From Leptospiraceae bacterium (lineage in GTDB: Bacteria > Spirochaetota > Leptospiria > Turneriellales > Turneriellaceae): 64,000 bases of DNA. Position numbers and translations under genes: made by a program. The stretch spans positions 310,001 through 374,000 of the forward strand of contig JANWWS010000013.1 of assembly GCA_025055765.1 (NCBI GenBank), given 5' to 3'. A model generated the notes under the pieces. It had not been told where the DNA came from. It saw only the letters and a program-made list of their open reading frames with translations, and did not search any database. The first letter of the stretch is position 1; every line of letters starts with the position of its first letter. Positions 39,506 to 61,831 of this stretch are shown here, piece by piece.

Positions 39506-39901
39506 ATGCCCGAATACTTCCTCTATGTTTTACTCAACCTACTGCTCATCTATGTTCCCAGGGTAGTTGTCATTGCCTACATATTGCGTAGCGGGGAGCC
39601 CTATGATAACCGACATCCGCGACTGCAGCAGGCAAAACTTACGGGACTTGGGGCAAGAGCCCAGGCTGCTCATGAAAATTCAATAGAGATGTTCGCGCTT
39701 TTTGCGCCCAGTGTGATTATTGCCCATCTCCTTGGGGCCCCAAATTATTATTTAAGCCTTTTAAGCCTTACTTACTTTTATGGCCGACTCGCCTATATCA
39801 TAGCTTACCTAGCCAATTGGCATGTCTTGCGCAGCATAATTTGGACAATAAATTTTCTCAACATCGTAGCTCTATATTTTATAATACCCTTAAATAACTA
39901 A
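39506..39901 (+). CDS. MAPEG-family membrane protein
   Basis: 131 residues with four hydrophobic helices. The loop ARAQAAHENSIEMFALFAP after helix 1 is the diagnostic stretch of the MAPEG family (membrane-associated proteins in eicosanoid and glutathione metabolism). Bacterial members are poorly known; some have glutathione transferase or peroxidase activity. It follows cinA by two bases and overlaps the 3' end of arsS by four, tail to tail. Confidence 0.85.
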   Translation: MPEYFLYVLLNLLLIYVPRVVVIAYILRSGEPYDNRHPRLQQAKLTGLGARAQAAHENSIEMFALFAPSVIIAHLLGAPNYYLSLLSLTYFYGRLAYIIAYLANWHVLRSIIWTINFLNIVALYFIIPLNN

Positions 39902-40887
39902 ACAAGCTCGCCGCCACAGCTCGAACCGCTGCCCGCGGTGCAGCCATAACAATGGTTGGCGAGTTTAATCTCCCGTGCCATGAGATTTTGAAAATTAGCT
40001 CGCCGGATGTGTCTCACCTCGGCTTCTAATTCCAGCATTTGGTTGAAATCACAGTCATAAAGCCTACCGTCGTAACCTACGGAAATTTGATGGCGGCACA
40101 TAAGACCTGGTAAAGTGGCAGGGTTAAAAGAATTTACCAAGACTTCCATATATGTCTCATATTTGCCTAGCCGCACAAGACTTTCTAAGAAGCGGTTTAT
40201 AGGCATATTATTAATACAATAGAGATTATTAAAGACAATCCCATGGTTACGCCAGAGGGCTTCCTTAAATTCCCTTTCTAAGATTTTTTGTGAAGAGGAG
40301 AGAAAAATACCAGTGGGGTTGTAGACGAGGTTTAAAACCAGAGAGGCTTTCTTGCCATAGCCAAGTTCGTTTAATAGTTGTAAGGCACGGATGGATTTCT
40401 CGTAGACACCTTTTCCCCTCTGGCTATCCGTGCGCTCCTTTGCGTAGTGGGGGAGGGAAGCCACTATTTCGACCTCGTGTTGGGCCAAAAATTGAGGCAA
40501 ATCTTCTTGCCCTTCTTCAAAAAGCACAGTAAGGTTACAGCGATCTATCACATGGCGCTTTCGTTTCTTGACTTCCTCCACAAAATAACGGAAGTAGGGA
40601 TTGAGCTCTGGTGCTCCTCCCGTAATGTCGACAATTTCTATTTCTGGGGTGCGATCCAAAAAAGCAAGTAACTCCTCAAAAATAGGAAGACTCATTTTTT
40701 CCGTACGCTGGGGTGAGGCATCTACGTGGCAATGACGGCAGGCCTGGTTACAGTATTTGCCTACATTAACTTGCAGTGTTTTGAGTGACAGAGGGGTAAG
40801 TTTTTTCAGACCAGTCTTTTCAAGATCTTTTGAAAAGCTGTAGTTTTGCGAAAGACGCTCTAGTTGCTCATCAAGCGATAGTTTCAT
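39898..40887 (-). CDS. arsS: Arsenosugar biosynthesis radical SAM protein ArsS
   Basis: 329 residues. The radical SAM cluster motif is Cys46-x3-Cys50-x2-Cys53 (GKYCNQACRHCH); the SPASM-like C-terminal part (LMCRHQISVGYDGRLYDCDFNQML, CYGCTAGSGSSCGG) has the extra cysteines of the ArsS family. Known ArsS enzymes join 5'-deoxyadenosine to dimethylarsenic compounds, making arsenosugar precursors. The 4-base overlap with the AhpD-like gene upstream, a known partner of this family, supports the call. ArsM (arsenite methyltransferase) is not in the window. Confidence 0.85.
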   Translation of the reverse strand: MKLSLDEQLERLSQNYSFSKDLEKTGLKKLTPLSLKTLQVNVGKYCNQACRHCHVDASPQRTEKMSLPIFEELLAFLDRTPEIEIVDITGGAPELNPYFRYFVEEVKKRKRHVIDRCNLTVLFEEGQEDLPQFLAQHEVEIVASLPHYAKERTDSQRGKGVYEKSIRALQLLNELGYGKKASLVLNLVYNPTGIFLSSSQKILEREFKEALWRNHGIVFNNLYCINNMPINRFLESLVRLGKYETYMEVLVNSFNPATLPGLMCRHQISVGYDGRLYDCDFNQMLELEAEVRHIRRANFQNLMAREIKLANHCYGCTAGSGSSCGGELV

Positions 40888-58705: not shown

Positions 58706-60214
58706 CTAAAAATACACATGGCTTACCCATAGTAGCTGGTTCGTAAAAGCCATATCGGCGGGATTAATGAGATTGCCTTGGCGCCAGCGACCTGTTTCGG
58801 GGAGCAGCCATACCCACTGGTACTCCACAGTAAAGCGTATAAATGGAAAAGGCGTAAAATCAAAGCCCGCTCCATAGCGGCCCGTCTCTGTATTTCTTTG
58901 CGCAAAACTAGGATCATAAAAATGATGGTTTACCTTGAGATTCAGACCATTTAATATTAGGTAGCTAAGCTCAAAGAAATGCCCAAAAGATTGGCGAAAT
59001 CCCAAACTGTCACGCCTTTCGCCCCAAATAAGTTCCCCCATAAAAACAATGGGATTGGTAAACCAAATGCGGCCTAAATTGAGGTAAAAATCCACGCTTA
59101 TACCTTGAAAATCCCCCCCAAAGGAATTGGGCCTTTTCTTTTGCATGAAGGATAACCCTCCCCCAAAGAGTAAATCCCGCCAGCCCAGATTTGCTGCAGC
59201 CCCATAGCCCGCCGTCTCATGGAATTCGTTGCCCATATTTGTGAAAACAGAAGCTGAAAAATAGGGGTAATTGGGGGCTAGCCCTACCTCGGCGCCATAG
59301 ACAGTGATGTTACGCCGGCTCATGTTGCGCTCAAAGAAGCGGTTCACATAAGCCGTATGGTCTTCTAACCGCAAGCCAAATCCGGGAATAAAGGCCCCTG
59401 CTTTGACGTAGCTCTGGTAGGGCAGCTCATGTAACATAAGGATGGCCTGGCGTACATAGGTTCTTTTTTCTACTGGTATCTGTCTTGCCTGGGGGGAGCC
59501 AAGCACTCCACCCGAAACCGCTAAAGTAAAATGCTCCACAGGATGTAAGGAAGTTGCAAGCTCCCCCTGCATAGGGAAAAATACTTCTTTTTGGGGAGTC
59601 TTAAAGTAAACCGTCCGGAAATCCCCCGAAATAAGCAAAAAGGGATCGGCATTGAGATGTCCATAAACTCCAAATAGGGGGGAATAGGTGCGCTCATCCC
59701 CCCGGGCATTTAGCGCATGGCCAAAGGCAAAGGGATCCCTTATACTCCAAAAGGGAGGTAAGAAATGGGTACGGTCATGGGTGGGGAGATTTTGTGCTTT
59801 TTTCTTAAGTTCGGCCTGCTGTTTTTCCCACTCGGCCGCCGAAAGAGGCTTAGGTTTGTTCGGAGGAGGAAAAAGGCTATCGCCTATTCTCTTTATGGTT
59901 CCACTTAGGTTACGCAAGTAATCCCAATAGGGACGGCGCTCGTAATTTAGCCAATATGGCAGGGTGCTGGCGTTAAGGTAGCGACCCGCCACCCGGCGCA
60001 TACCTCCCCCATTTGTGTCAATGTGGCAGGTAGAGCAAGACAGATTGCACTTGCGTTTGGAAAGCTCAGGATTCGGCCATTCCTGCTGCCTATCCGTCTG
60101 AAAAGGATTCGCGTGACAATTGTCGCATATTCTCCCCTCGCGGGCTGTATAGACAGGCAACGACCATAGAGCCTCTGCCCATACTAGGAGCAATGTATAA
60201 GAAAATTTCTTCAT
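58706..60214 (-). CDS. Beta-barrel protein with two N-terminal c-type haem motifs
   Basis: 502 residues. Signal peptide (FSYTLLLVWAEALWSLPVYTA), then two CxxCH haem-attachment motifs: Cys30-Cys33-His34 (ICDNCH) and Cys60-Cys63-His64 (CSTCH) followed by NGGGMRR. A proline- and lysine-rich linker (about 100-150) leads to a barrel of about 330 residues with repeated amphipathic strands (HFTLAVSGGVL, FSASVFTNMG, ISVDFYLNLGRIWF, FIRFTVEYQWVW) and a terminal phenylalanine (QLLWVSHVYF), the usual outer-membrane signal. Export and haem attachment in the periplasm are expected. It may be an outer-membrane electron conduit; a structural or porin role is the alternative. Overlaps the EI24-like gene by 4 bases. 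Confidence 0.8.
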   Translation of the reverse strand: MKKFSYTLLLVWAEALWSLPVYTAREGRICDNCHANPFQTDRQQEWPNPELSKRKCNLSCSTCHIDTNGGGMRRVAGRYLNASTLPYWLNYERRPYWDYLRNLSGTIKRIGDSLFPPPNKPKPLSAAEWEKQQAELKKKAQNLPTHDRTHFLPPFWSIRDPFAFGHALNARGDERTYSPLFGVYGHLNADPFLLISGDFRTVYFKTPQKEVFFPMQGELATSLHPVEHFTLAVSGGVLGSPQARQIPVEKRTYVRQAILMLHELPYQSYVKAGAFIPGFGLRLEDHTAYVNRFFERNMSRRNITVYGAEVGLAPNYPYFSASVFTNMGNEFHETAGYGAAANLGWRDLLFGGGLSFMQKKRPNSFGGDFQGISVDFYLNLGRIWFTNPIVFMGELIWGERRDSLGFRQSFGHFFELSYLILNGLNLKVNHHFYDPSFAQRNTETGRYGAGFDFTPFPFIRFTVEYQWVWLLPETGRWRQGNLINPADMAFTNQLLWVSHVYF

Positions 60215-60960
60215 TTTTTATAGTAAAAAATAGCTGCTCCTGCAAGAGCGGACATAGGAGCAAGTATCGGCCCTAGGATGGGGACCAACATAAGTAGGTA
60301 TTGCAATACTCCAAGTCCCATAATTTCGGCTATATGGGAAGAAGCCCAGCGATAGCGCTCTTTGATTTTCCGGTGGTGGCGCTCTAAAATAAGCTCAAAA
60401 ATGCCACGTCCCAAAACATAACTACCTGTAAGAAAAACCACCACCCACTGGAAGGGGCCAAGAAAAAGGGAAACAAAAAAGAGGCCTATTTCTAATAAAA
60501 ACAAACGAAAATTTAAAAATAGGCCCAAAAACACATTCCGGATTTCCATACCTAGGGAGAGTTTCTTTTCCTTGCCCACGAGAATTTGCTCAAGGCGTGT
60601 CAAGAGAGGACCTAAAAATGGGGCTACTATTATAGTCGCTAAGATTCGGTATAAAAAGAGCACGAGAACAAGGGCTAACAAGACAGTAATAAGCTTTGCG
60701 ATAAACCCAAGCCCCCCTGCTAGGTAGCCAACAAGACCCGCCTCTTGTCGATAGCGCTCAATAAGCTCACTCGTGTATTCGAGGGAGTAACTAAACACCA
60801 AAAAAGCCAGCACCCCAAACAGGAGGGTGGAAAGTATCCCTGGGAAGATCGCATAGCGCCAAAGCCTATGGCGTGATAGAAAGCGCATACCTTGCAAAAC
60901 GAGGGGTAAGGACCCAGAAAATCGGCTAAGGAAGTTTCTTTGGATTCGCTGCTCTTTCAC
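60211..60960 (-). CDS. EI24/CysZ-like integral membrane protein
   Basis: 249 residues. GMRFLSRHRLWRYAIFPGILSTLLF at the start, hydrophobic segments (LAGGLGFIAKLITVLLALVLVLFLY; VFLGLFLNFRLFLLEIGLFFVSLFLG; VLQYLLMLVPILGPILAPMSALAGAAIF) and the ending PMSALAGAAIFYY match the EI24/CysZ family. CysZ carries sulfate in Proteobacteria; other members are uncharacterised, and no sulfur genes are nearby. First gene of the haem-barrel unit: its stop overlaps that gene's start. Confidence 0.82.
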   Translation of the reverse strand: MKEQRIQRNFLSRFSGSLPLVLQGMRFLSRHRLWRYAIFPGILSTLLFGVLAFLVFSYSLEYTSELIERYRQEAGLVGYLAGGLGFIAKLITVLLALVLVLFLYRILATIIVAPFLGPLLTRLEQILVGKEKKLSLGMEIRNVFLGLFLNFRLFLLEIGLFFVSLFLGPFQWVVVFLTGSYVLGRGIFELILERHHRKIKERYRWASSHIAEIMGLGVLQYLLMLVPILGPILAPMSALAGAAIFYYKK

Positions 60961-61147: not shown

Positions 61148-61831
61148 ATGCGTCGCTTTCACTTTGCTTCAGCCCTCTATGCGATCTTAGACAAGGAAAT
61201 CTTCCAAAGGCAGGGACTTGAAATTACTGAAGGGGCCAGGGCGCTCCTTTACGGTGGTTGCCGAGTTTTCCAGTATCGTAACAAGATTTCCAACAAAGTT
61301 GATATTGCAAGGGAAGCTCATGCTCTTTTGAGAATTGCCGAGGGTTACCAGGCTATCTTTGTCTTGAACGACGGGGTCGAGGCTTACCTCGAACTTTACA
61401 AAGAACGCAAGAAAAAGAATCTCTTTTTTCATTTTGGGCAAGAGGATCGCCATCCTCCTCTTTTTTATCATCCTTTTGGACGCTCAACCCACTCCATTGT
61501 GGAAGTCCGGCAGGCATTGAGGGAAAGGCCAAAACCGACCTATATTGGCTTTGGCAGTGTCTTCCATTCCCCTACCAAGCCCTGGCTTAGGCCAGTGAGT
61601 GCTGCAGAAATCCGCCATGCTGTGGCTTTATGGTCAGGTCCTATTGTGTTCATAGGGGGGATTTCCTTGGCAAACTTGGACCAACTACGAAAAATCATCC
61701 CCCATCAAACGCGTTTTAGCTACGGTGTCGCCTCAGATCTCTTTCGCTTTGGCAATAGAGCTCGGGATCTGGAGCGCTATGCTTTGGAATTCGAAAGGGA
61801 AGCCAAACGCTTTCCTCAAAGTCTCGTATAG
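61148..61831 (+). CDS. ThiE/TenI-like thiamine-phosphate synthase family protein
   Basis: 227 residues, TIM-barrel of the ThiE/TenI superfamily. VFQYRNK at strand 2 (usually QLREK), FVLNDGVE (usually NDR), HFGQEDRH (GQxD), GRSTHS, IGFGSVFHSPTK and FIGGISL line up with the thiamine-phosphate synthase active-site order, but several positions differ (Tyr for Leu, Gly for Arg in the NDR motif), so TenI-like or other function is possible. Longer than most ThiE by about 15 residues. The 187-base gap upstream shows no TPP riboswitch. Overlaps the amidase gene by up to 53 bases. Confidence 0.75.
   Translation: MRRFHFASALYAILDKEIFQRQGLEITEGARALLYGGCRVFQYRNKISNKVDIAREAHALLRIAEGYQAIFVLNDGVEAYLELYKERKKKNLFFHFGQEDRHPPLFYHPFGRSTHSIVEVRQALRERPKPTYIGFGSVFHSPTKPWLRPVSAAEIRHAVALWSGPIVFIGGISLANLDQLRKIIPHQTRFSYGVASDLFRFGNRARDLERYALEFEREAKRFPQSLV

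Follow-up and report, generated by a model that had tools for sequence, protein, structure and literature searches.

Fused and two-part cytochrome–porin systems

Fusions of a single-haem cytochrome to a barrel are known from iron-oxidising bacteria. In Cyc2, a monohaem cytochrome is joined to a barrel predicted to have 16 strands; the protein is defined by the motifs AXPXFAR[Q/K][T/Y], upstream of CxxCH, and PXL, about 4 residues downstream (PMC8406198). In MtrAB, MtoAB and PioAB, and in the Pcc complexes of Geobacter, the haem protein and the barrel are separate polypeptides, with 8 to 10 or more haems, and the MtrAB barrel has 26 strands (PMC8406198, PMC4245776). The initial annotation of the gene described here assumed that the known conduits have haem protein and barrel on separate polypeptides; this premise is wrong, since Cyc2 already fuses both. 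Cyc2 and its relatives are the sole fused cytochrome–porin type that we met in the literature searched, and a search for spirochaete or dihaem fused cytochrome–porins (subscription papers aside) returned no description of the present family.

A predicted cytochrome–barrel fusion with two haem motifs

The window, by which we mean the whole stretch of 64,000 nucleotides that was analysed, contains an intact open reading frame of 502 amino acids on the minus strand (58706..60214). The initial annotation had given the same frame, strand and coordinates, and its description of a single chain, in which a signal peptide is followed by two CxxCH motifs, a linker and a barrel-like C-terminal half ending in phenylalanine, holds. 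The family is present in 8 of the 393 genomes of the phylum, that of the window included, and the identities to the window protein in the family alignment are 37–73%. This spread is that within the phylum's genomes, which the profile search covered; in the organism's own taxonomic family the distribution is sporadic (6 of 13 sampled genomes carry the gene). No relative of the protein was found in the plasmid and viral collections.

The signal peptide, residues 1–18 (60161..60214, minus strand), is placed by the h-regions that precede a conserved LP[VL]Y[TS]AR in seven sequences. Its core is weaker in the window copy, which has Glu14, than in most relatives, where it is clear and leads to the same LP[VL]Y[TS]AR start; the mature N-terminus is probably near LPVYTAR. 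Haem motif 1, CDNCH, occupies residues 30–34 (60113..60127, minus strand) and haem motif 2, CSTCH, residues 60–64 (60023..60037, minus strand). Both are invariant in all seven sequences that hold the N-terminus, i.e. the window protein and six relatives. The initial annotation had made its reading depend on conservation in close relatives, and because all six that retain the N-terminus keep the two motifs, we do not attribute them to chance; when the protein's own residues were shuffled, a single CxxCH arose in 20 of 20000 trials and a second one in none. The window protein has five cysteines, one of them odd. The unpaired extra residue, Cys56 (60047..60049, minus strand; KCNLSCSTCH), lies shortly ahead of haem motif 2, as CxxxCxxCH, in all seven N-termini.

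The nearest Pfam matches of the haem region are cytochrome c7 (PF14522) and paired CXXCH (PF09699), in 7 and 6 of the 8 members, respectively; they are confined to a short two-haem segment, and the window protein scores under the curated cut-offs (19.7 bits for Cytochrome_C7, whose Pfam cut-off is 24.8). Just one other open reading frame of at least 100 amino acids in the window contains CxxCH (39898–40887); it was rejected as a cytochrome, being radical-SAM-like with a chance match to the motif. Beyond the haem region, from about residue 90 to residue 174 (59693..59947, minus strand), the chain continues as a variable, partly proline-rich linker, which is gapped and poorly conserved in the alignment.

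A search for c-type cytochrome maturation genes had been suggested as a check, and the genome does encode CcmF/NrfE-like and CcmC-like proteins. The open reading frame of the latter (219 amino acids) covers most of the CcmC model, and its PF01578 match was extended past one TAG. ResB, the System II component, was sought in the same genome and is absent, so that we assign maturation to System I. The genome also has an aa3-type oxidase, together with its CoxB.

The predicted barrel

Residues 175–502 (58709..59692, minus strand), which end in HVYF, are predicted to form an outer-membrane beta-barrel, based on amphipathic segments and a weak match to Porin_O_P. Between residues 176 and 502 we count 17 amphipathic strand-like segments, a number which is not an exact strand count but which exceeds that obtained from the null of this alternation test, shuffled columns (6.2 ± 2.0, maximum 14, n = 1000). 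The C-terminal HxYF is conserved among the relatives, and Met215 and His262 are invariant barrel residues. An AlphaFold2 model built from three sequences had a pLDDT of 33 and was unusable, and a profile search of the PDB gave no relative.

The window protein has no hmmscan match to Porin_O_P (PF07396) at E values up to 1. Comparison by hhalign with 30 Porin_O_P proteins of the phylum gives a collinear match (Prob 51, E 1.5e-4; reversed control 0.06), a weak likeness that is confined to the C-terminal third of the barrel, and smaller subsets of these proteins give little similarity. Kinship with Porin_O_P is suggestive only. None of the 30 PF07396 loci carries CxxCH, the sign of a similar fusion that we looked for.

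Redox proteins upstream of the fusion

In the window, the gene directly upstream (60211..60960, minus strand) encodes an EI24/CysZ-like inner-membrane protein (PF07264, 83.7 bits). The initial annotation regarded it as the operon partner, and the two genes do overlap by 4 bases here, but it adjoins the fusion gene in no relative with readable upstream sequence, and we rejected it as functional partner since it is not adjacent in the relatives.

Instead, in each of the six relatives whose context is readable, the gene directly upstream codes for a redox protein with a lipoprotein-like N-terminus; it is always on the strand of the barrel gene, and touches that gene, overlaps it or lies at most about 60 bases away. 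(A seventh locus, L007, was left out of this count; it begins inside the barrel gene.) The neighbour is a monohaem cytochrome c in L002, L003, L005 and L006, a small dihaem CxxCH protein in L008, and, in L004, a Rieske-like protein with CPH...CQRH whose match is under the Pfam cut-off. The monohaem type has a weak resemblance to cytochromes c of class I. The place taken by a cytochrome c in other relatives belongs, at L004:3042-3524 and L013:7880-8362, to a Rieske-like protein whose N-terminus is lipoprotein-like. ThiE-like frames that resemble each other are found a few kb or less from the gene, both in the window (61148–61831) and in another genome (G005, L013:2881-3576), which may be residual synteny.

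The strongest argument for a role in electron transfer is that three unrelated kinds of redox protein fill the same slot. The fact that the redox partner is not adjacent in the window's own genome is a point against it; that genome encodes the monohaem protein, with 59% identity, 18 kb off and outside the window (G000:C49:388065-388433). Among 61 genomes, the monohaem protein has strong matches (E at or below 1.1e-39) in 5 of the 8 that carry the barrel gene and in none of the 53 others, with a hypergeometric p of about 9e-6, an optimistic value that counts related genomes and ignores shared ancestry.

Comparison with Cyc2 and with porin–cytochrome complexes

Like Cyc2, the window protein is one exported chain, with a signal peptide, a CxxCH right after the mature N-terminus, and a C-terminal barrel, which is here predicted. 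Cyc2 has a single CxxCH, whereas the family has two, invariant in the relatives. In place of AXPXFAR[Q/K][T/Y] the family has [SA]LP[VL]Y[TS]AR[ES][GA], within an N-terminal consensus, LPxYTARxGRxCDxCH, that differs from that of Cyc2; the PXL of Cyc2 is absent after both motifs (CDNCHANPFQT; CSTCHIDTNGGG), and, also unlike Cyc2, about 110 residues separate the second haem from the first strand. With the Mtr and Pcc complexes the family shares the combination of a haem protein and a barrel at the outer membrane, but as one chain with two CxxCH rather than as separate genes for a barrel and a multihaem protein.

When the Cyc2 motif was sought as a DNA pattern, neither the organism's own genome nor the viral contigs had a match. 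The pattern matched in 2 of the 393 genomes of the phylum, with no control matches among the matches listed. One match is a full-length fusion of 397 amino acids (L081:466-1659, G014:C25), which carries GVPAFARQTGLDCNSCH close to its N-terminus and is followed, 12 bases downstream, by a gene for a cytochrome c; the other (L082:3-425, G059:C35) is interrupted by the contig end. In G059, a Cyc2-motif protein and a member of the two-haem family occur together.

These comparisons bear on the possibility that the protein is a divergent iron(II) oxidase of the Cyc2 type, which would oxidise dissolved Fe2+ at the pore and pass the electrons to a periplasmic cytochrome c. The shared order of parts, which runs from a signal peptide through a haem motif right at the mature N-terminus to a barrel, the similar [SA]LPxYTAR start and the monohaem c neighbour, which has a counterpart beside the L081 Cyc2-motif protein, are all in its favour. 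We nevertheless think it unlikely: the protein has two haem motifs and neither AXPXFAR[Q/K][T/Y] nor PXL, and its profile aligns to the two Cyc2-motif proteins of the phylum (one of them incomplete) over only about 15 residues around CxxCH, with nothing convincing in the barrel. We propose that the window protein would work like Cyc2, but we do not file it as Cyc2.

Proposed function

We consider it probable that the protein is a two-haem fused cytochrome–porin whose role is to exchange electrons with a redox lipoprotein across the outer membrane. The fused architecture, the conserved haem motifs, the recurrent redox neighbour and the maturation genes are evident from the sequences. The fused electron path put forward in the initial annotation is the best-supported reading, while its claims about the novelty of the fusion and about the EI24 neighbour fail.

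Haem binding, membrane location and electron transfer are what we infer. After export, haem would be attached to both CxxCH by the CcmF/CcmC-type (System I) machinery, and the C-terminal half would form a barrel, with roughly 16 strands, within the outer membrane. Held by its long tether, the haem domain at the N-terminus would sit at or inside the periplasmic mouth. Electrons would pass between the haems and the redox lipoprotein, which according to lineage would be a monohaem c, a dihaem c or a Rieske-type protein. In this manner, and as has been suggested for Cyc2, an external or pore-entering redox compound could be coupled to the periplasmic chain. Because two haems are short for a wire across the barrel, a substrate that enters the pore, or a docking partner, must be assumed. 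The likeliest guess is that a soluble donor is oxidised and feeds the aa3-type oxidase.

Another possibility, which we find improbable, is a porin gated by a haem domain that senses redox state or a ligand. The long tether from the haem domain to the barrel and the extra invariant Cys56 would suit such a device, but the recurrent pairing with redox carriers favours electron transfer and there is no conserved regulatory neighbour; a redox-sensing haem domain was the alternative of the initial annotation, and it has gained no positive support. Just as improbable is a haem enzyme, of a peroxidase or reductase kind, that is attached by the tether to a pore through which it receives its substrate: a redox partner is present, and the invariant Met215 and His262 could line a site, but no enzyme family is matched above its cut-off. 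An ordinary outer-membrane protein in which the cysteines of the motifs serve for metal binding or disulfide formation and not for haem, as the sub-cut-off Cytochrome_C7 score and the odd number of cysteines might suggest, is hardly credible given an exact CxxCH that occurs twice in an exported protein, is conserved in all relatives and goes together with neighbouring cytochromes and with the maturation genes of System I.

Implications

The fusion of a cytochrome to a porin is already known from Cyc2, and what we describe looks like a separate two-haem variant of it. We suggest tentatively, and with rather less confidence than for the electron-exchange function, that it represents a second, independently evolved family of two-haem cytochrome–porins with interchangeable redox lipoprotein partners (cytochrome c or Rieske), which would provide a minimal outer-membrane electron route in Leptospira-related bacteria. 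If this is true, a two-haem type exists outside the classical iron oxidisers, and the fused solution either had more than one origin or has undergone wide diversification. The family would then be a candidate marker for an extracellular redox metabolism that is overlooked by the criteria used for Cyc2, and a small system for testing the minimum number of haems needed to move electrons across the outer membrane.
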